A stretch of DNA of 64,000 nt from Gammaproteobacteria bacterium (lineage in GTDB: Bacteria > Pseudomonadota > Gammaproteobacteria > Steroidobacterales > Steroidobacteraceae): contig JAQGOF010000154.1 of NCBI GenBank assembly GCA_028293745.1, forward strand, positions 1 to 64,000, read 5' to 3'. A program made the position numbers and the translations under genes. Of this stretch, positions 16,228 to 46,850 are shown one piece after another. The notes beneath the pieces are model-generated. The model saw only the letters and a list, made by a program, of their open reading frames with translations, did no database searches and was not told the origin of the DNA. How positions within the stretch are numbered: the stretch's first letter is position 1; every line of letters begins with the position of its first letter.

Positions 16228-18094
<1,867 letters not shown>

Positions 18095-18097
18095 ACC

Positions 18098-19129
18098 ATG
18101 CAGGTCAAGGTCATCGGCGCTGGCGTCACGGGGCTTGCGTGCGCCCTTGAGCTTGCCGAGCGTGGCGCCGCGGTCGAGGTGCTCGACCGCGGCGCGGCCC
18201 TTGGCACATCGAGCTGCTCCTGGTACGCCGGCGGCATGTTGGCGCCGTGGTGTGAGCTGGAGACTGCCGAGCCGCTCGTTGCAAAGCTCGGAGGCGAGAG
18301 TCTCGCGTGGTGGCAGCGTAGATTTTCAGCCACGGCCCTCAACGGTAGCCTGGTGGTGGCTCATGCTCGCGATGCCGCGGATCTGGTGCAGTTCGGCCGG
18401 CGCACCGAGCGGTTCGAATGGCTCGATGGTGAGGCGATCGCTGCGTTGGAACCGGATCTTGGGGGGCGTTTCAACAAGGCGTTGTACTTCCGGGAGGAGG
18501 GCCACCTGGACCCGCGAGCCGCGCTTGCCGCGCTGGCACACCGACTTGATGACTTGGGAGTCCCGATCCGTTTTGGGGTTAGTGCGGCAGCGGAGCGGTT
18601 GGTGGCGCCGGCGCATGGGGCCCGCGCCCGTTGCGTGATCGACTGCACCGGGCTTGCGGCCCGCAGCGTCCTAAAGGATCTGCGCGGGGTCAAAGGGGAG
18701 ATGCTGCTTCTTCGTCTGCGCGATGTTTCACTGTCGCGACCCATCCGCGTGTTGCATCCACGTTTGCCGCTCTACATCGTCCCGCGCGCTGACGGACTTT
18801 TCATGGTCGGCGCAACAATGATTGAGAGCGATGAGCCGACGCGGATTACGGCTCGCTCGATGCTCGAGCTGCTGAGCGCCGCATACGCCCTGCATCCAGC
18901 TTTCGGTGAAGCCGAGATCATTGAAATCGGCACCGGCGTGCGTCCGGCGTTTCCTGACAATTTGCCGCGAATTGGCTGGCACGGCGGTGCTCTTTACGTC
19001 AACGGCCTGTACCGGCATGGATTTCTCCTGGCGCCCGCGCTGGCGCGCAGGGCTGCGCAAGTTGTGCTGGAGGACCGGCATTTCCCAGAGGTGATGCGTG
19101 AAGATACTCGTGAACGGCACCTGGTGTGA
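18098..19129 (+). CDS. thiO: Glycine oxidase, FAD-dependent
   Basis: 343 residues. It oxidises glycine to iminoglycine for thiazole formation. The N-terminus carries the FAD dinucleotide-binding fold VIGAGVTGLACALELAERG with a following acidic residue (VLDRG), then SSCSWYAGGMLAPW, and the C-terminal FAD-binding GVRPAFPDNLP and HGFLLAPALA. Three bases separate it from thiC. Its 3' end overlaps the start of thiS by 32 bases in another frame, tight coupling typical of thiO-thiS pairs in gammaproteobacteria. A ThiO rather than ThiH implies an aerobic thiazole route. Confidence 0.95.
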   Translation: MQVKVIGAGVTGLACALELAERGAAVEVLDRGAALGTSSCSWYAGGMLAPWCELETAEPLVAKLGGESLAWWQRRFSATALNGSLVVAHARDAADLVQFGRRTERFEWLDGEAIAALEPDLGGRFNKALYFREEGHLDPRAALAALAHRLDDLGVPIRFGVSAAAERLVAPAHGARARCVIDCTGLAARSVLKDLRGVKGEMLLLRLRDVSLSRPIRVLHPRLPLYIVPRADGLFMVGATMIESDEPTRITARSMLELLSAAYALHPAFGEAEIIEIGTGVRPAFPDNLPRIGWHGGALYVNGLYRHGFLLAPALARRAAQVVLEDRHFPEVMREDTRERHLV

Positions 19130-19295
19130 GACAACTGCCACATATCTGGCGTCGGCATTGGAGGAGCTCGGATATGGCGGATCCACAGTCGCCACGGCCT
19201 TGAACGGTGAGTTTGTCCCGGCGATCTCGCGCTGCGCCGCCCCTCTGGCCGAGGGTGATCGCCTCGAAATTCTGGCGCCGATGCAGGGAGGCTGA
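19098..19295 (+). CDS. thiS: Sulfur carrier protein ThiS
   Basis: 65 residues with a ubiquitin-like beta-grasp pattern (MKILVNG, then the GSTVATALNGEFVP segment and LEILAPMQGG). The C-terminal Gly-Gly is exactly at the end, as needed for adenylation and thiocarboxylate formation. It starts inside the 3' end of thiO and its stop is directly followed by the thiG ATG. In the thiazole synthase reaction it hands sulfur to ThiG. Its adenylating partner is probably the ThiF/MoeB-like protein encoded further along. Confidence 0.95.
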   Translation: MKILVNGTWCETTATYLASALEELGYGGSTVATALNGEFVPAISRCAAPLAEGDRLEILAPMQGG

Positions 19296-20069
19296 ATGTT
19301 GAGGGTATACGACACCGAACTACGCTCTCGGCTGATGTTGGGAACGTCCCGGTATCCGTCGCCTGCGGTGTTGGCGGAAGCGGTAAAAGCGTCGCGCGCA
19401 CGAGTCGTGACCGTTTCCTTGCGGCGGGAATCGAGTGGTGAGCGAGCCGGACAAGGGTTCTGGTCGCTCGTCCGTGATCTGGGTGTGCGCGTGCTGCCGA
19501 ACACCGCGGGTTGCCATTCGGTGAAGGAAGCGGTGACAACGGCGCAAATGGCGCGGGAGGTCTTCGGCACTTCGTGGATCAAGCTCGAGGTCATCGGCGA
19601 GGACGACACGCTGCACCCCGATGTGTTTGGCCTGGTGGAAGCGGCACGAATCCTGTCGGGCGAGGGATTCGAAGTATTTCCCTACACGACCGAGGATCTC
19701 GTCGTGGCGGACAAACTGTTGGTCGCGGGCTGCCGGGTGTTGATGCCCTGGGGGGCGCCGATTGGCTCGGGACGGGGACTCAACAATGTATTCGGCCTGA
19801 AGGCCTTGCGGGCGCACTTCCCGGATGTCCCGCTGGTGATCGATGCAGGGATCGGCGTTCCCTCGCACGCGGCGCAGGCAATGGAGCTCGGCTTCGATGC
19901 CGTGCTGATCAATACTGCTGTCGCCCAAGCGGCCAATCCCGTCCGCATGGCAGAGGCTTTCGCTCAGGCCGTCGAAGCCGGACGTGCCGCCCGTAAGGCG
20001 GGCCCCATGGAGCCGCGAGATCTCGCGGTACCGTCCACGCCGGTGATCGGCACGGCGATTCTCCGATGA
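19296..20069 (+). CDS. thiG: Thiazole synthase
   Basis: 257 residues, a TIM-barrel enzyme that joins deoxyxylulose phosphate, iminoglycine and the ThiS thiocarboxylate. Conserved features: [10 protein letters not shown], the substrate-binding lysine in [34 protein letters not shown], and the C-terminal [21 protein letters not shown] with VNTA-like INTAVAQA. Length is normal. It overlaps thiE by four bases (ATGA). Nothing is missing by eye. Confidence 0.97.
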
Positions 20070-20695
20070 CACTCGCACGTGTCTATCCGATCGTCGACAG
20101 TGCCGAGTGGGTGGGCCGATTGTTGCCGCTGGGTGTACGGCTTGTTCAGCTGCGCATAAAATTTGGGTCTGCCGCTGACGTGCGTAGCGAGATACGAAAG
20201 GCCAAGGCCCTGTGCACCCGGGCCGGCGCACAGTTGGTAGTCAACGACCACTGGTCGCTGGCCATCGCCGAGGATTGCGATTTCGTGCATCTGGGCCAGG
20301 TTGATCTCGACAGTGCCGATGTGCCAGCGCTCCGCGAGGCCGGCGTCAGGATCGGAATCAGTACCCACGATGACACCGAGCTCGCGCGGGCCCTGACACT
20401 CCAACCGGACTACGTGGCGCTCGGTCCAATCTATCCCACATCGCTCAAGGTCATGCCCTGGTCGCCGCAGGGGCTCGAACGCGTGACCGAATGGAAACGC
20501 CGGGTCGGAAAGACTCCCCTGGTGGCCATCGGCGGACTGACTGCGGAGCGGTTGCCTGGCGTGTTTGATGCCGGTGCGGACATCGCGGCTGTCGTCACCG
20601 ACATTGTTCGAAATCCCAACCCGGAAGGGAGGGCCAGGGAATGGCTCGTCACCGCGGCGCGTTGCACGAGTCAACCGGCGAGCGGTCACTCATGA
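20066..20695 (+). CDS. thiE: Thiamine-phosphate synthase
   Basis: 209 residues. It condenses HMP pyrophosphate with thiazole phosphate. Conserved blocks: [50 protein letters not shown] and [21 protein letters not shown]. It belongs to the shorter gammaproteobacterial ThiE type found beside thiO-thiS-thiG. It overlaps thiG and the next gene by ATGA on both sides. Confidence 0.95.
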
Positions 20696-21669
20696 GTGAT
20701 CGGTATTCCCGCCAGATGATTCTCCCTGAAGTAGGCGAAGCCGGACAGGCGCAGCTGGGTGACGCCTGCGTTGTGGTGGTCGGGGCCGGTGGGCTGGGCT
20801 CCGCTGTGTTGCAGTATCTATGCGCAGCCGGCGTCGGAGCTCTGGTGATCGTCGATCCTGATCGGGTCGAGGAATCGAACCTGCACCGTCAGCCGATATA
20901 TCGCATGCGGGATGTCGGGCTCCTCAAGGCGCAGGCTGCCCGCGAAGCCCTGTTGAGCCTGAATCCCGAGGTTCGGGTCGAAGCCGTCTGCGAGCGCCTG
21001 ACGCCCTCCAATGTGAGTCATCTGGTCGCGGCGGCCGATATCGTGGTCGATGCGGCGGACAGTTTTGCGGTCACCTATGTTGTGAGCGACGAGTGTCAGC
21101 GCGCCGGGAAAATCCTGGTCAGCGCCTCGGTGCTCGGATTGTCAGGTTATATCGGGGCTTTTTGCGGCGCAGCACCAAGCTATCGCGCTGTCTTTCCGGA
21201 GATGCCGCGACAGGCGGGGTCTTGTGCGCAGTCGGGCGTGCTGGGCACGGCCGTTGGGGTCATGGGGACGTTGCAGGCTCACATGGTGCTCGCGCTTCTG
21301 CTGCGTTTGCAGCCGTCCGCTCTCGGACAACTCGTTACAGTGGATTTCCGCACTCTGCGCTTTGGAGGGTTTTCGTTTGCCGCGGCCCACGAGCCGGGTG
21401 AAGCGGTGCTGCCTTTCATTTCGGTCGATCAAGTCACCGATGCGGATGTCGTAATCGACTTGCGAAACCCGGCCGAGGCGCCGGAATCACCGTTCCCCAT
21501 TCGAATGGACGTCGCCGCTGTGGAGCGGGCGGAATCGGGAACACGCTTTCCTCCAGAGTCGCGCGTCGTGCTCTGTTGCCGCACAGGGGTTCGCGCATGG
21601 CGCGCGGCACGGGCACTGCAGAGCCGGGGGCACATGAATGTGGCGCTCATAGCGTTCGGCGGCGGGTGA
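20692..21669 (+). CDS. HesA/MoeB/ThiF-family adenylyltransferase with C-terminal rhodanese domain
   Basis: 325 residues from the ATG at 20692, coupled to thiE by a 4-base overlap. Residues 1-225 form the E1-like domain: RYSRQMILPEVGEAGQ, the nucleotide loop VVGAGGLGSAVLQYL, the acidic DPDRVEESNLHRQ and DAADSFAVTY, and SCAQSGVLGTAVG. Residues ~245-325 are a rhodanese-like domain with VIDLRNPAE and the active-site loop CCRTGVRA. The usual Zn-binding cysteines are absent: the normal PCYRCLF block reads PSYRAVF, and the second CxxC pair is missing where FRTLRFGGFSF stands. Position in the operon suggests that it adenylates ThiS and loads it with sulfur; the rhodanese Cys could carry the persulfide. 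Confidence 0.88.
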   Translation: MSDRYSRQMILPEVGEAGQAQLGDACVVVVGAGGLGSAVLQYLCAAGVGALVIVDPDRVEESNLHRQPIYRMRDVGLLKAQAAREALLSLNPEVRVEAVCERLTPSNVSHLVAAADIVVDAADSFAVTYVVSDECQRAGKILVSASVLGLSGYIGAFCGAAPSYRAVFPEMPRQAGSCAQSGVLGTAVGVMGTLQAHMVLALLLRLQPSALGQLVTVDFRTLRFGGFSFAAAHEPGEAVLPFISVDQVTDADVVIDLRNPAEAPESPFPIRMDVAAVERAESGTRFPPESRVVLCCRTGVRAWRAARALQSRGHMNVALIAFGGG

Positions 21670-31297: not shown

Positions 31298-31546
31298 TTG
31301 AGCTGCGGACGTGCCTTTCTACGTCAGAAGTGGCTCACCCCGGTCGTTGGTGGTCTGCGGTGGGTCATTCAGGCAGTGAGGCAGTTGGGTCCGTATGCGG
31401 CCATTGAGCTGTTACTTCCCGGCGGCTCACTGCTGGCCATCGCGCTGTGGCTGTATCGACGCAATCGCCTTGCGCGCCAGGCGAGTCCACACACGCTACG
31501 GCTTCGGGTCAGTCGGAATTTGCTCGCGCCCTGCGCCCTGGAATAG
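31298..31546 (+). CDS. Small one-transmembrane protein
   Basis: 82 residues. A polar N-terminus is followed by QLGPYAAIELLLPGGSLLAI and ALWLYRRNR, a single membrane-spanning segment ending in a positively charged tail. I recall short proteobacterial proteins with a LPGG-containing membrane helix and YRR tail, function unknown. It begins in the gap left between the truncated pilin and the alpha-galactosidase remnant. The start is not fixed by a clear ribosome site. Confidence 0.5.
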   Translation: MSCGRAFLRQKWLTPVVGGLRWVIQAVRQLGPYAAIELLLPGGSLLAIALWLYRRNRLARQASPHTLRLRVSRNLLAPCALE

Positions 31547-31580
31547 GCTAAGTTACTGTTTTTACGCTGAGAATGTATCC

Positions 31581-33474
31581 ATGCGGGCGGGTTTCGTATG
31601 GCCCTGGCTGATGGGCACGCTGACATTTTTTGCCGAAAGGGCGGTCGCGGCCGAAACGCCGCCCGCGGCATCCGGGAGCGCCATTCGCTATGTCGAGGCG
31701 GCTCGCCTGTTCCAGTTGAGCTCGCCGAAGGCTTCTTACGTCTTCGGCATCAACGAGCGCGGCGAGCTGCAAGCGCTGCATTGGGGCGGGCGCGTTGCCG
31801 ATGACGATGCAGTGCCGGCAGCGCGGGTCGGCCGCGACAGCTCGTCTTTCGAACCGACCACCAGCACGGTGCAACAGGAATATCCCGGCTGGGGCGCTGC
31901 CTTTTACGGCGAGCCGGCCCTGAAGCTGAGCTTCCCCGACGGCAATCGCGATGTGGTTCTGCGCTATGTCTCGCATCGCATCCAGGGGCCACGCCTGTGG
32001 GTGCAGCTCAAGGACATCTCGCGTGATGTGCGGGTCGAGCTGCGTTACGAGATCGATCCGGAAACCGGAGTCCTGGCGCGTTCCGCAAGCATCGAGAATC
32101 ACACCGGCAAGCCGCTGGTCGTGCAACAGGCAGCCGCTGCGGCCTGGAGCCTGCCGCGCGCCGATGACTATCGGTTGTATTCGCTCTCGGGCCGCTGGGC
32201 CGGCGAGTGGAGCGTCGATGAGAGGCGGCTGGCCCCAGGGACGACGGTGTTGGAAAGTCGGCGGGGCTCGACGGGCCATCAGAACAATCCATGGTTCGCC
32301 GTCGCGCGCGCTGACAGCAACGAAGAATCCGGCCCGGTCTGGTTTGGCGCGCTTGCCTGGAGCGGCTCCTGGCGCATCACTGTTGAGCAAGACCCCACAT
32401 ACCGGCTTCGTATCACCGGTGGCTACAATCCGTTTGACTTCGGGTACCGTCTCGCAGCGGGCGCTGCGCTGGAAACACCGGTGTTCTATGCCGGCTACAC
32501 CGAAGGCGGGCTGGGCGAGGCTTCGCGTCTGATGCATCATTTACAGCTCGCGCGGATCCTGCCGGGGGCTCCGCGTTCGCGCCTGCGTCCCGTGCTCTAC
32601 AACTCCTGGGAAGCGACGCAGTTCGACAGTAGATGAAGCGGGTCAGATCAAGCTTGCGCAGAAGGCCGCAGCGATCGGAGTCGAGCGCTTCGTGATGGAC
32701 GACGGTTGGTTCGGCGCGCGCAACAACGACAAGGCGGGTCTGGGTGACTGGACGGTCAACCGTAGCAAATTTCCACGTGGCCTGAAACCACTCATCGACG
32801 AGGTGAAGTCACGGGGCATGGACTTCGGTCTGTGGGTCGAGCCCGAAATGGTCAATCCGGACAGTGACCTGTATCGCCGCCATCCGGACTGGGTCCTGAA
32901 TTTCCCGGGCCGCCCGCGGACCCAGGCGCGCAATCAACTCGTGCTCAACCTGGCCCGGCCCGATGTGCGCGACTACGTGTTGCGCGTGTTGGACGAATTG
33001 CTGACGCAGAACGACATTGCCTTTCTCAAGTGGGACTACAACCGCAACTGGTCGGAACCTGGTTGGTCCGGCCAGGCGCCTGAAGACCAGCAGAAGGTGT
33101 ATGTCGCCTATGTCGAGAATCTGTACTGGATCCTGCAGCAGGTACGCGCGCGGCACCACAATGTGGAAATCGAGTCCTGCTCCGGCGGAGGCGGACGCGT
33201 CGACCTGGGCATTCTAGGCCTGACGGATGAGGTCTGGCCTTCTGACAACACCGACCCCTATGACCGCCTGAGCATCCAGGACGGTTTCACGCATGCCTAC
33301 ACACCCGCAGTGATGATGGCGTGGGTGACCGATTCGCCGAATTGGCTCAACCAGCGCAGCACCTCGCTGGAATACCGATTCCTGTCGTCGATGCAGGGGT
33401 CATTGGGCATCGGCGCCAATTTATCGAGTTGGAGTGACAACGACTCCGCAGTCGCCGGCCGGGATCGTGTTTGA
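31581..33474 (+). pseudogene. GH36 alpha-galactosidase, frameshifted and C-terminally truncated
   Basis: The first frame (31581-32636) has a signal peptide ending near AVAA and a GH36 N-terminal beta-sandwich up to VLYNSWEATQFDS, then stops. One extra base, most simply A at 32628, shifts the frame; the plus-one frame continues VDEAGQIKLAQ, VMDDGWFGAR, DFGLWVEPEMVNPDSDLYRR, KWDYNRNW (the nucleophile aspartate), ESCSGGGGR and PSDNTDPYDR (the acid-base region) to a stop at 33472-33474. About 150 residues of the usual C-terminus are missing; the sequence ends after ANLSSWSDNDSAV. Both defects make it a likely pseudogene even if the single-base change were a sequencing error. Confidence 0.85.
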
Positions 33475-36432: not shown

Positions 36433-36840
36433 TCAGCGAGCGGATGTGTTCCGTAGCTCGACCGGCAAGCCGTGTGGTGTGGTGCGATACGCCTCGGCCC
36501 ACGCTTGTTTTTGTGCCAGCAGCGATGCCGGATCAGCCAGGCCCTTTGCTACTACCAGGCGCTCCAGCGCTGTCAGCCAACATTGGTAGTAGATTGAGCC
36601 TGCGTCCGCCTCACTGTGCTGCGTCGCGCTCGTCGGCTGCTGCGTCGCGGCGGCCAACTCCTCAGCAAGTGCGGCGGCCCATTCCTTCCAGGAGAAACAG
36701 CCTTGCGCGGATAGCCGGACGGCGAGTGCGAAAGCTTCGGCCTGCCAAGGCTCGGCAAAAACCGGCCCCCCCGCGTCGCGGGGCAGACGTGGCAGCACGG
36801 CCAGGCTCTCCGGCTCCGCAGTCGAGTCAGGCCGGTTCAA
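36433..36840 (-). CDS. Nitrile hydratase accessory protein
   Basis: About 135 residues from a TTG at 36840 that lies within the end of the beta subunit gene (an ATG at 36873 is also possible). Recognised by RDAGGPVFAEPWQAEAFALA, QGCFSWKEWAAALAEEL, then YYQCWLTALERLVVAKGLAD and the RTTPHGLPVEL end. This small protein accompanies nitrile hydratase subunits and is thought to help maturation or metal insertion. It is the third gene of the alpha-beta-accessory run. Confidence 0.85.
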   Translation of the reverse strand: MNRPDSTAEPESLAVLPRLPRDAGGPVFAEPWQAEAFALAVRLSAQGCFSWKEWAAALAEELAAATQQPTSATQHSEADAGSIYYQCWLTALERLVVAKGLADPASLLAQKQAWAEAYRTTPHGLPVELRNTSAR

Positions 36841-37486
36841 GGTAGTCGTCCCACAAATCAACGTAAACACCATCCTGCGGTGCAGCGTCTGCTCCCCACA
36901 ACTCGCGCGCGGCGAAGCGTACCGAGTACACGTGCTGCGGTTTCTCGCCGAGAAAATGAGCATTCGTATCCGGAAAGACAAACACACCGTGATCGCGGTG
37001 GATGATGCCCAGTTTGCCGCGCACGTAGCGCGGCTCACGTGTATGACCGGTCGGGTTGATATTGCGCGCACGCACGTGCTGCCCGATTTGGAAGCGCGGG
37101 GCCACGGGCACGTCACGGCTCGTCGGCACACCTTTCGCGATCAGCTCCGCGGCCTTGTCAACGCTGAGTGCCGGAACCGCAACGGGCACTCCTGGATCCG
37201 GTGTGCCGCTCTCGAGTTCCGCGGGCCTGATGAAACCCCGTTTCTCGAGCAACACGAGAAACGCCGCGAATTGCCTCTCGTAGTAGCTCATCCGCAGGTA
37301 CTCAGCCGCGGGGACCAGCTCCACCTCATGTCGGCTAACATCAATATTCCACCGACGCCAGGCTCCCATCGCACGCCGCAGCGCGAACACTCGGCGCTCC
37401 CACAGGTGATGAAACACAGGCTCGTTCCGTTCTTGTTGGATCGGACCCATTCCGTGCATGCCGCCCATGTCGTGCATGCCGTTCAT
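36827..37486 (-). CDS. nthB: Nitrile hydratase subunit beta
   Basis: 219 residues from the ATG at 37486, overlapping the alpha stop (ATGA). N-terminus [14 protein letters not shown] is typical, followed by [17 protein letters not shown], the [19 protein letters not shown] segment, [26 protein letters not shown] and the C-terminal [12 protein letters not shown]. It forms the active-site partner of the alpha subunit, converting nitriles to amides. Length normal. Confidence 0.95.
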
Positions 37487-38103
37487 GCTCGATCGCCGTG
37501 TTGCACAGTTATCCTGGCCACGCCCACCATTGCATCGCGCGTGACGAGCGCCGCCAATTCGGTATCGTCCATGCTCTGCGTGCCGGCAGGCCGTTCCGGA
37601 AGCACGAGGTAGCGCAATTCCGCAGTGCTGTCCCACACTCGCAGCTCAACTGCGTCCGCCAGATGCAGCCCGAACTCCCGCAGTACACCGCGCGGATCGA
37701 TCACGGCCCGAGACCGATAGGGTGCCGATTTGTACCAGACGGGCGGCAAGCCCAGGACCGGCCAGGGATAGCACGAGCACAACGTGCACACGACGAGGTT
37801 GTGTATCGTGGCAGTGTTCTCAACCACGACCATATGCTCGCCCTGCATACCCCCATAACCCAACTCAGCAATGGCTGCATCCGCATTGCTCAGCAAACGT
37901 TGCTTGTAAGCGGGGTCGGACCAGGCACGCGCCACTACCCGGGCGCCGTTGCGTGGTCCGATCTTGTGCTCGTAAGTATCAATCAGCACCTCGAGCGCCG
38001 CGCGATCGACCAGGCCCTTTGCCACCAGCAGTGATTCCAGCGCCTTGACCCGCAGGGCCGGATCGGAGGGGGCGTCCTGGTGATCATGATCGGTCGTGGT
38101 CAT
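37483..38103 (-). CDS. nthA: Nitrile hydratase subunit alpha, cobalt type
   Basis: 206 residues. The metal-binding motif [11 protein letters not shown] is present; the Thr in CTLCSC (rather than Ser) is the usual mark of cobalt rather than iron enzymes. The N-terminal helix [27 protein letters not shown], the [13 protein letters not shown] strand and the [12 protein letters not shown] end are all family-typical. It heads the operon, ATG at 38103 with AAGAAG upstream, and is divergent from a GntR regulator. No amidase is seen nearby. Confidence 0.96.
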
Positions 38104-43128: not shown

Positions 43129-43584
43129 TCAAGCCTCGCCGATGTCTTCGTCCCAGACGTCGGGATGTGCCCGGATGAAAGTCGTCAGCAGGTCGACGCA
43201 TTCCGATGAGTCGAGATCGACAACCTCCACTCCTCGCTCGCGCAACCAGTCGATTCCGCCTTGGAAGGTGCGCGACTCGCCGACCACTACTTTGCCGATC
43301 CGAAACTGCACGATCAACCCGCAGCAGTACCAGCACGGAGCCAACGTTGTGACCATGATGGTGTCCTGGTATCTACGCTGACGGCCTGCCTTTCGGAAGG
43401 CATCTGTCTCGCCGTGAACCGACGGGTCACCTTCTTGGACACGACGATTGTGACCTCGCCCCAGCAGCGCACCATTCTGGTGAAAGAGGGCCGCGCCGAT
43501 CGGAATTCCTCCTTCGGCCAGTCCAGCCTTTGCTTCCTCCAGGGCGACATCGAGCATGGCCCGGTAATCAAAACCCGCTGTCAT
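43129..43584 (-). CDS. Cytosine deaminase, yeast FCY1-like
   Basis: 151 residues. Zinc-site motifs SVHGETDAF and LAPCWYCCG match the CDA-fold nucleobase deaminases, with LPIG-like GIPIGAALFHQNG before. The C-terminal stretch (VVVGESRTFQGGIDWLRERG, FIRAHPDVWDEDIGE) closely follows the Saccharomyces cytosine deaminase tail, not guanine deaminase or TadA. It would convert cytosine to uracil. It is divergent from the Urc1-like gene and so sits beside a uracil-handling operon. Confidence 0.87.
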   Translation of the reverse strand: MTAGFDYRAMLDVALEEAKAGLAEGGIPIGAALFHQNGALLGRGHNRRVQEGDPSVHGETDAFRKAGRQRRYQDTIMVTTLAPCWYCCGLIVQFRIGKVVVGESRTFQGGIDWLRERGVEVVDLDSSECVDLLTTFIRAHPDVWDEDIGEA

Positions 43585-43712
43585 TCACCACCTCGTGATA
43601 TCGCAACTTGCTGATTAGTGAGGGTTTATCTCGCGGTCAGGGGTAATTCTACACCGGGTGTGCGGTGGCTCACTTCCGAACTCGGCTCGGGTAGATTAAG
43701 TTCATATCCAGG

Positions 43713-44975
43713 ATGACAAAGAACCCTCCCGGTCACATACGCTTAACCTCGCACTCATCGGGAGGCAAGCCCCACAAGTTTCCCCTCGAATGGGGTGCGT
43801 CAACAGCGCAGGCCCGCGGTCCTGTCATTGGCTCGACGACAGCACGCGGTCATCGCAACGTGATTGGTGCGCATGGGGGCGCCTATTCAATCTACCGCGC
43901 ACTCGCAGTTTCATCCGGCACACTGGATCCGAACGCCCGGCCCGATCTGAAAGACACCGGCCCGGTCGTCGAGATGGGTCCTCACCGCCAGTGGGTGGGG
44001 CAGCAGACGATCGTGTCGCTCGATCCCTGGGGGCATCGAGTGGCCGAAGACTTCGGTGCCGAAATCGAGGACGGCCTGGATCTTCGTCCGACGATTGCGA
44101 TCACCAAGGCACGCCTGATGCTGCCAGAGGTTCGCGAAGCGATCGAGCTGGGCAGGCTCTCGGAGGATGGTGTAGTCATTCACGCAGGGGGTGAGGTAGG
44201 CGTGACCAAGGCCGCCATCGACCCGGTTTGGTACCTGCCTGGTGTTGCGGAGCGTTTTGGCGTTACGGAGACGTTACTGCGTCGAACCTTGTTCGAGCAG
44301 ACTGCCGGTATGTATCCGGAACTGGTCACCCGCAAGGACCTCCATGTTTTCCTGCCTCCAATCGGCGGCACCACGCTGTATATCTTTGGTGACCCCGCAG
44401 CCATCTGCGACCCGGCGCGTCCATTGACCTGTCGAATCCACGATGAGTGTAATGGCTCTGATGTTTTCGGCTCGGACATCTGTACGTGCCGGCCGTATCT
44501 GACACATGGCGTCGAGGAGTGTATTCGCACGGCCCAGGCGGGCGGCGCCGGACTGATCGTCTACAACCGCAAGGAGGGGCGGGCGCTCGGGGAAGTTACG
44601 AAATTCCTGGTATATAACGCGCGTAAGCGTCAGCCGGGTGGAGATCAGGCCGCAACGTACTTCGCGCGTACTGAATGCGTTGCGGGTGTCCAGGACGCAC
44701 GATTTCAACAGCTCATGCCCGACGTCATTCACTGGCTCGGAATTAAACGAATCGATCGCCTCGTGTCGATGTCGAATCTCAAGTACGACGCCCTGATTGC
44801 GGCGGGAATCGAGATTGGTGAACGGGTCCCGCTTCCGCCTGATCTGGTTCCGCAGGACGCAATGGTCGAGATTGAAGCAAAGAAGGCGGCCGGCTACTTT
44901 GTACCGGAGTCGGAAATGCCGGCACTGGGCGCGAGCCCGCCACGTGTAGTTGGACGTGACATCAAGGACTACTAA
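43713..44975 (+). CDS. Urc1-type GTP cyclohydrolase II-like protein of uracil catabolism
   Basis: 420 residues, longer than RibA (about 200). The GTP cyclohydrolase II core appears in the second half: TCRIHDECNGSDVFGSDICTC with the three zinc cysteines, LIVYNRKEGRALGEVTKFLVY and a HWLGIKRIDRLVSMSN-type end. The N-terminal ~190 residues (IGAHGGAYSIYRALAV, GPVVEMGPHRQWVG) are the Urc1-specific extension known from the fungal uracil-degradation URC pathway. It is immediately followed by, and overlaps, the Urc4 homologue, which makes the assignment firm. The ATG at 43713 has no strong ribosome site. Confidence 0.9.
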   Translation: MTKNPPGHIRLTSHSSGGKPHKFPLEWGASTAQARGPVIGSTTARGHRNVIGAHGGAYSIYRALAVSSGTLDPNARPDLKDTGPVVEMGPHRQWVGQQTIVSLDPWGHRVAEDFGAEIEDGLDLRPTIAITKARLMLPEVREAIELGRLSEDGVVIHAGGEVGVTKAAIDPVWYLPGVAERFGVTETLLRRTLFEQTAGMYPELVTRKDLHVFLPPIGGTTLYIFGDPAAICDPARPLTCRIHDECNGSDVFGSDICTCRPYLTHGVEECIRTAQAGGAGLIVYNRKEGRALGEVTKFLVYNARKRQPGGDQAATYFARTECVAGVQDARFQQLMPDVIHWLGIKRIDRLVSMSNLKYDALIAAGIEIGERVPLPPDLVPQDAMVEIEAKKAAGYFVPESEMPALGASPPRVVGRDIKDY

Positions 44976-46221
44976 CCCTCGGCCCGAACGCGCGTTGGCG
45001 GAAAGCGCAAGGTCGCTCCTGCGCGCTGATGCAGTACGAAAAAGCGCACAACGCATGTTGATGTTGGCGCTGGAGGGGCGGTTGGAAGACTGGACGGTCG
45101 ATCTCGATCGGTTGGCTGCAACAGCGGATTTTGTAGCGGGCGTGGTTCGGGAGCGCTATCCACGACTCGATGTGCCGGTGCATTCGCGGTGGCGGCATTT
45201 CGTGTTTGGAGGCCGCGATCTATGGAATGAGATCGTCCTCCAGGCAAAGTGGGAGAGTACTGAGGCCGCTGCACGCTCCGCTTTCGATCTTGTAATCACG
45301 TCTGTCTTGCTCGATGCGGGCGCGGGCGGGGGCTGGCGCTATCACGATCGCGCCACCGGGCTGGTCGCCGCGCGCTCAGAGGGGCTCGCGCTCGCGAGTC
45401 TGCGCTGGTTTGAAAGTGGTGGGCTTGCAAACAATCCGACCGACCTTTTTAGAGTGGACGCGGCGGCGCTGCGGCGTGTCGACAGCCAAGCGATCCAGAA
45501 CGCGTTCCAAGCCCACGAAGCCAACCCGCTTCTCGGCTTGGAAGGGCGTGCGGCGCTGTTGAACCGGCTCGGTGCAGTCATGGAGTCGCGGCCCGATCTG
45601 TTTGCAGTCTCAGACTCGCCGCGGCCTGGGGGTCTGTTCGATGCGCTGCGCGCGCGCGCCGCAAACGGGCGCTTGCCGGCCGCCACGATTCTCGAGACCT
45701 TGCTCGAGGCTCTGGGTCCAATATGGCAGGGGCGACCGAGCCTGGGCGGCGTGCCACTTGGCGACTGCTGGCCGCATCCGGCACTGGTCGCGCAAAGTCC
45801 CGAAGACGGCTACGCCCCCCTTCACAAGCTGTCACAGTGGTTGACCTACTCGCTGCTCGAGCCCCTCGAGAACGCGGGAATCTCCGTGTCCAACGTGCAC
45901 GAGTTGACCGGACTCGCCGAGTACCGAAACGGCGGGCTGTTCGTTGACATGGGGGTCCTCAATCCCCGCGAGCGCGCCGCCCTGTCGACGACTTACGCGG
46001 TTAAAGATCCCTTCGTAGTCGGATGGCGCGCGCTGACCGTGGCGCTGCTCGACCGGCTTGCACCTCTGGTGGGCACGCGACTTGGCCTCACGCCCGAGTT
46101 GTTTCCACTGCCGTGCGTACTCGAGGGTGGGACCTGGGCAGCTGGCCGTCTCATTGCGCACAAGACACGTGCTGATGGCGGTCCTCCATTTCATGTCTTG
46201 AGCGATGGGACGGTGTTCTGA
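44950..46221 (+). CDS. Urc4/Urg3-family (DUF1688) protein
   Basis: 423 residues; TTG at 44950 or GTG at 44956, both inside the end of the Urc1 gene. Recognised as DUF1688 by [58 protein letters not shown], then the [19 protein letters not shown] block and a final [14 protein letters not shown]. The family is the URC4 component of the uracil catabolic route and its exact reaction is not settled to my knowledge. It overlaps upp by a single base (TGATG). Confidence 0.92.
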
Positions 46222-46850
46222 TGGAGAACGTAACAACAGTGGCTCACCCGCTCGTGCAGCACAAGCTCACGCTCATGCGCGACAAAACGACTTCGACGAA
46301 GGGTTTTCGTCAGTTGCTGCGCGAGATCGCATTGTTGCTGTGCTACGAGGTGACTCGTGACCTGTCGCTGGACCCGGTACAGATCGAGACTCCCCTGATG
46401 CCGATGCAGGCTCAGATGTTGGCGGGCAAGAAGCTCGTGTTCGCGCCCATCCTGCGCGCCGGGATGGGATTCATCGAGGGCATGCTCGATCTGGTGCCTT
46501 CGGCGCGCGTGGCGCACATTGGCCTGTATCGCGATCCGGATTCCCTGACCGCCGTGGAATACTACTTCAAAGCGCCTTCCGATCTATCGGAGCGACTCGT
46601 GATCGTGGTCGATCCCATGCTGGCCACCGGCAACACCGCCGTCGCCGCGGTGGATCGCCTGAAGGAGCATGGGGCCAGCGAGTTGCGTTTCGTGTGTCTC
46701 CTGGCAACGCCCGTGGGCCTCGCGAACTTGCATCGCCACCACCCCGAAGTACGCGTGTGGACAGCGGCTGTCGATGAGACGCTGAACGATCACGGTTATA
46801 TTCTCCCAGGGTTGGGCGACGCCGGTGACCGGCTATACGGGACCCGTTAG
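46221..46850 (+). CDS. upp: Uracil phosphoribosyltransferase
   Basis: 209 residues, the normal length. It makes UMP from uracil and PRPP. Features: [50 protein letters not shown], the PRPP loop [21 protein letters not shown], and the C-terminal [17 protein letters not shown]. It is the third gene of the urc1-urc4-upp operon, coupled to urc4, and likely supplies the nucleotide substrate for URC degradation (the fungal URC6 role) as well as salvage. Confidence 0.97.

Follow-up and report, generated by a model that had tools for sequence, protein, structure and literature searches.

The 64,000-nt stretch analysed here (the window; contig JAQGOF010000154.1 of a Steroidobacteraceae genome, part of contig C255 in an assembly of 6.9 Mb, 259 contigs and 91% completeness) carries the URC uracil-degradation genes urc1, urc4 and upp with a gene for a yeast-type cytosine deaminase beside them. 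Judged from the sequence, this is quite likely a cytosine/uracil scavenging locus, in which cytosine would be converted to uracil and uracil broken down via URC to urea. A second conclusion, which we regard as probable, concerns the URC4/DUF1688 family of fungi and bacteria: it would belong, as a second branch, to the Qng1 superfamily (nucleoside-5'-phosphate N-glycosidases) and free urea from 5-phosphoribosyl-urea. URC would then be a pathway in which uracil is dressed as a nucleotide and opened as uridine triphosphate (UTP), the remains of the base are cut off by a DNA-glycosylase-like fold and ribose 5-phosphate is recovered, and which cytosine deaminases of two unrelated folds joined separately.

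Organization of the locus

The locus consists of the following features, each with the basis of its assignment:

43129..43584, reverse strand: deaminase, yeast-type (CDA-fold) cytosine deaminase from a bacterial set whose zinc motif is C-W-Y-C, 151 aa (homology and residues)
43585..43712, no strand: divergent intergenic stretch of 128 nt between deaminase and urc1 (reading frame positions)
43713..44975, forward strand: urc1, UTP-cyclohydrolase-type member of the GTP cyclohydrolase II superfamily (PF12471 and PF00925), 420 aa (family scores)
44950..46221, forward strand: urc4 (URC4/urg3, DUF1688, PF07958), proposed phosphoribosyl-urea N-glycosidase, 423 aa (Pfam and comparison with Qng1)
46221..46850, forward strand: upp, uracil phosphoribosyltransferase (UPRT), 209 aa (family scores)

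The original prediction had placed these four genes here, the last three overlapping; all four reading frames were found, homology upholds their identities, and urc1 and urc4 share 26 nt, urc4 and upp 1 nt (TGATG). Homologues of Urc1, Urc4 and UPRT are thereby clustered. UPRT scores 264.8 bits against TIGR01091 (cut-off 208.35) and 276 bits against the solved structure 1i5e. The deaminase gene lies on the other strand, with 128 nt between it and urc1, and is therefore divergent and not part of the transcript of the triad. Presumably, the 128-nt stretch holds both promoters; no consensus sigma-70 site was found in it, and scans for sigma-70 sites and terminators performed at chance level. A stretch of 23 nt upstream of urc1 is 87% alike between the window and one other locus (L002, see below), and no clear counterpart was seen in L003, L004, L005 and L007. 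The G+C content of the four genes is 60-64% (window: 62%), and the stretch is flanked by genes for an M20 peptidase on one side and a glutathione S-transferase on the other.

Proposed route from cytosine to urea

Homology, conserved residues and genome context support the predicted route. In the first step, the deaminase would convert cytosine to uracil and ammonia. UPRT, assigned at family level, would then join uracil and phosphoribosyl pyrophosphate to uridine monophosphate, which general kinases would raise to UTP. Urc1, as a UTP cyclohydrolase (again at family level, the class having been studied by others), would open the uracil ring. The analogy with GTP cyclohydrolase II suggests that the products are pyrophosphate, 5-phosphoribosyl-urea and a three-carbon fragment. 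The latter would be malonate semialdehyde, the likely source of the reported 3-hydroxypropionate. The fourth step is newly proposed: URC4, an N-glycosidase with the Qng1/DUF2419 fold, would split phosphoribosyl-urea into urea and ribose 5-phosphate, using Lys293 and Glu324 where Qng1 has Lys199 and Asp231. Finally, urease would free ammonia from urea, so that each cytosine could yield as many as three nitrogen atoms, with ribose 5-phosphate recovered.

According to the accessible text of PMC7530994, URC1 and URC6 of Lachancea kluyveri yield 3-hydroxypropionate and ribosylurea by steps described as uncharacterised, and URC4 turns ribosylurea into urea; this last reaction fits the assignment of URC4 as an N-glycosidase. 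Naming a specific reaction for URC4, together with two candidates for its catalytic residues, would help to close the pathway.

The prediction that the window holds no urea-degrading enzyme agrees with a family scan of 39 of its open reading frames (ORFs), a subset of all. Elsewhere in the genome, a full urease alpha subunit (964 bits) provides a urea-using enzyme; its gene has neighbours that, judged by eye, resemble ureF and ureD. Among 48 URC genomes (the window's and those of 47 of the 49 loci described below, L044 and L050 being left out), 39 contain urease.

URC4 as a relative of Qng1

URC4 is the sole PF07958 match in the genome (447 bits); Pfam lists DUF1688 as a protein of unknown function. 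Its predicted fold is that of Qng1/DUF2419, the queuosine-5'-monophosphate N-glycosidase, with which it appears to have a lysine and an active-site carboxylate in common: Lys293 and Glu324, the proposed active-site residues of URC4, take the places of Lys199 and Asp231 of Qng1, and the lysine and carboxylate positions are kept in all 42 URC4 sequences aligned (the window's and 41 of 54 listed). PDB titles describe Qng1 structures in complex with queuosine-5'-monophosphate.

Several points weigh against the proposed reaction. The catalytic Asp231 of Qng1 is an invariant Glu324 in URC4, the window's URC4 gives no match to the Pfam family Q_salvage even at E<=10 (cut-off 25 bits), and a common fold alone does not prove the reaction of URC4. 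Q_salvage matches occur in 11 of 42 relatives, the best with an E-value of 2.9e-4; URC4 is therefore a relative, not a member, of Qng1/DUF2419. It differs from Qng1 further in its low identity (15-20% over the structural alignment), in the proposed leaving group (urea) and in motifs of its own, such as the consensus sequences EYRNGG and DCWPHP, which lack a counterpart in two aligned Qng1 sequences. These motifs, the exchange of Glu for Asp and a kinship made up of fold and remote homology would also suit a protein that has the Qng1 fold and does another job in the pathway, for instance attacking another bond of the ring-opened nucleotide or serving as a partner of Urc1. Such a role seems unlikely, though it keeps some weight, given the full conservation of the lysine and carboxylate positions, the nucleotide ligand of Qng1 and the placement of yeast URC4 at the step from ribosylurea to urea (PMC7530994, accessible text). 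A link between DUF1688 and DUF2419 was not found in the open-access literature searched, and the founding URC and DUF2419 papers may hold one; in the part of PMC2174524 available, the DUF1688 protein is called one of unknown function.

Urc1 and the flavin question

Urc1 contains both domains of its class, PF12471 (GTP_CH_N, 260 bits) and PF00925 (GTP_cyclohydro2, 53 bits), and scores 718.9 bits against NCBIfam NF005536/PRK07198, well above the cut-off of 403. Among solved structures it matches 7ej3/7eev with 599 bits over residues 5 to 401 of 420, and the GTP cyclohydrolase II 2bz0 with 39.7 bits. The entries 7eev and 7ej3 are titled GTP cyclohydrolase II, and we take them to stem from UTP cyclohydrolase work (Zhang et al. 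2021 ACS Catal). That study appears as reference 14 in the accessible part of PMC12507026.

The original prediction would have fallen had Urc1 proved to act in flavin synthesis. Databases do annotate Urc1 as 'GTP cyclohydrolase II', and it is the only match in this genome to the riboflavin RibA model TIGR00505, which might suggest a riboflavin-pathway enzyme and a locus serving flavin synthesis. With 48.9 bits, the match stays under the cut-off of 205.85, a test that says little because none of the 58 genus genomes searched reaches this value. A weak RibA-domain match is present in 52 of the 58 (Urc1 itself among them), most of the ORFs concerned being about 400 aa long, yet 20 listed congeners lack DUF1688. 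Lumazine synthase, present in 14 of 14 controls, was not found in this assembly either; the rib genes are therefore probably missing from what was assembled. Together with the large difference between the 7ej3/7eev and 2bz0 scores, this makes a flavin role extremely improbable; it is on the PDB and NCBIfam scores that this role is rejected, the RibA model being a weak test.

The deaminase and its association with URC loci

The deaminase scores 71 bits against PF00383. Among solved structures, yeast-type cytosine deaminases fit best (about 120 bits), followed by a putative cytosine/adenosine deaminase (61 bits) and TadA (59 bits). An alignment of 46 sequences, with loci carrying the same gene twice left out, shows that it retains Asn51, His62, Glu64, Cys91, Cys94, Phe114, Trp152 and Asp155 (yeast numbering). 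In yeast cytosine deaminase, these residues have zinc-binding, catalytic and substrate roles; the His/Cys/Cys zinc site, the catalytic Glu and the substrate residues of the yeast type are then all in place. Like yeast FCY1 (1uaq, 1ox7) in fold family and in these residues, the window's deaminase and its bacterial set differ from it in the zinc motif, which is C-W-Y-C instead of C-D-M-C.

When the genome collection was scanned once for URC4, 49 further loci were obtained. In 11 of them (L019-L023, L026, L032, L034, L040, L041, L046), a CodA-type amidohydrolase, unrelated to the yeast-type enzyme, is encoded downstream of urc4 within 10 kb; L046 lacks the triad, the CodA of L041 runs off the contig, and that of L021 is in two pieces, perhaps a broken gene. 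Two of four plasmid loci opened, L064 of Azospirillum and L065 of Cupriavidus, likewise have a CodA type downstream. The four CodA proteins scanned (L020, L026, L064, L065) reach 810-826 bits with the NCBIfam cytosine deaminase PRK07572, and that of L020 scores 377 bits against a solved cytosine deaminase. A BMP substrate-binding protein is encoded in 6 of the 49 loci, a RutR-like regulator in 5.

At genome level, 15 of the 48 URC genomes carry the yeast-type deaminase (E<=1e-25), 13 the CodA type (E<=1e-50; 11 above cut-off) and none carries both (Fisher p = 5e-6, overlap p = 0.003, phylogeny not taken into account). Across the class, 25 of 369 genomes, the own genome counted, contain the yeast type. 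That cytosine deaminases of two unrelated kinds are attached to URC loci points to cytosine as a likely feed of the pathway in bacteria.

Against such a feed stand the following observations. Neither deaminase is present in 20 of the 48 genomes, and the exclusive pattern is confounded by phylogeny, a pattern and not a proof: 8 of the 15 yeast-type carriers are mycobacteria and most CodA carriers, by record titles, betaproteobacteria. A yeast-type deaminase adjoins URC in only one of the 49 loci, some of which have short flanks. In none of the 20 homologues opened, of 24 found in the class outside the own genome, do urc1 or urc4 lie within about 5 kb. Trp-Tyr replaces the Asp-Met of yeast at positions 92-93, and the substrate preference may therefore differ. 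Rare adjacency, Trp-Tyr and the opposite orientation of deaminase and urc1 would fit a triad that is a URC operon for uracil with a divergent deaminase acting on another base (for instance 5-methylcytosine, isocytosine or guanine) or standing there by chance. We consider this rather improbable, as the residues with which yeast cytosine deaminase binds zinc and the base are kept, the unrelated CodA is repeatedly linked to URC loci and cytosine-type permeases stand beside deaminase relatives: a Palleronia relative directly precedes an annotated codB, and in eight mycobacterial URC genomes the deaminase lies between a permease and a 2-oxoglutarate (2OG) oxygenase (read by eye from the N-terminal letters; Pfam on L142 only).

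The single locus with an adjoining yeast-type deaminase, L002, encodes a protein 78% identical to that of the window, in the same direction as urc1. In the genome of L004, the gene for an 82% identical deaminase stops 160 nt short of the end of one contig, and 333 nt separate the start of urc1 from the end of another; the two ends do not overlap, and adjacency cannot be told.

Some relatives occur in other settings. In the mycobacteria with URC (L140-L147; L142:539-1938), cytosine deaminase and permease adjoin a 2OG-Fe(II) oxygenase, the solved relatives of which include, in fourth place, a thymine dioxygenase (101 bits); uracil and URC may there receive thymine or 5-methylcytosine as well. 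At L125:986-8248, an operon for a BMP-family ATP-binding cassette (ABC) transporter has a yeast-type deaminase as its last gene; the other strand carries a RutR-like regulator and upp, and the 11.5 kb seen contain neither urc1 nor urc4. This is the same module of transporter and deaminase, here lacking URC. On plasmid pADP-1 (L066:5977-7095), a 43% identical 'nucleoside deaminase' is surrounded by transposases and has a short ORF for a 'ring-opening amidohydrolase' next to it; the deaminase has neither Phe114 nor Trp152 and may therefore act on another substrate.

Distribution and relation to known systems

The genes urc1, urc4 and upp are consecutive in this order in 44 of the 49 loci, with upp of L041 about 2.3 kb further on. 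L016 has no upp in 5.1 kb downstream, the contig of L027 ends inside urc4, and in L044 and L050 a contig end cuts urc4 on the urc1 side, with no upp in 2.3 and 3.1 kb downstream. L046, with urc4 and neither urc1 nor upp in 10 kb on each side, speaks against the proposed scavenging locus. The exact four-gene arrangement, for which the original prediction proposed a survey of genomes, is rare, with one further case among the 49 loci. Thirteen plasmid records contain URC4 (four were opened), nine annotated as 'URC4/urg3 family protein' and four unannotated there. In the window's order, a DUF1688 match was obtained in 12 of 296 genomes (8 above cut-off); in view of this and of the congeners without a match, its presence is patchy.

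The triad resembles URC of L. kluyveri (URC1, URC4, URC6) and urg1-urg2-urg3 of Schizosaccharomyces pombe in the clustering of Urc1, Urc4/DUF1688 and UPRT; the S. pombe cluster is induced together by uracil, according to the accessible text of PMC2174524. Unlike these, the window has a bacterial operon of overlapping genes with a deaminase beside it, and its genome encodes urease in place of the urea amidolyase of L. kluyveri (PMC7530994, as far as available). Loci of Cupriavidus, Azospirillum and Hydrogenophaga likewise combine urc1-urc4-upp with a cytosine deaminase, which there is CodA, encoded downstream; some of them also have a RutR-like regulator and an ABC transporter of the BMP family. 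The window has the yeast type and no adjacent BMP-type transporter. URC in bacteria is not new, to go by the available part of PMC3869809, the 'URC4/urg3 family protein' annotation of plasmid records and the UTP cyclohydrolase work cited in PMC12507026: the triad and the pathway are already known, and the yeast-type deaminase alongside is a rare variant. A study of a bacterial URC locus with a deaminase, of which the original prediction knew none, was not found in the open-access literature searched here either; the founding URC papers may hold one.

Other features of the window

Nitrile hydratase beta and alpha subunits are encoded at 36827-38103, some 5 kb ahead of the URC locus, and a Pseudoroseomonas plasmid (L062) likewise carries a nitrile hydratase cluster at a distance of about 4 kb from urc1; this double occurrence is taken as coincidence. 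At 31395-33474, two consecutive ORFs match an N-terminal GH36 domain and then a melibiase catalytic domain, apparently a single alpha-galactosidase gene split in this assembly. A row of thiamine genes at 16256-21669 encodes ThiC, a flavin adenine dinucleotide (FAD)-dependent oxidoreductase, ThiG, thiamine-phosphate synthase and ThiF.
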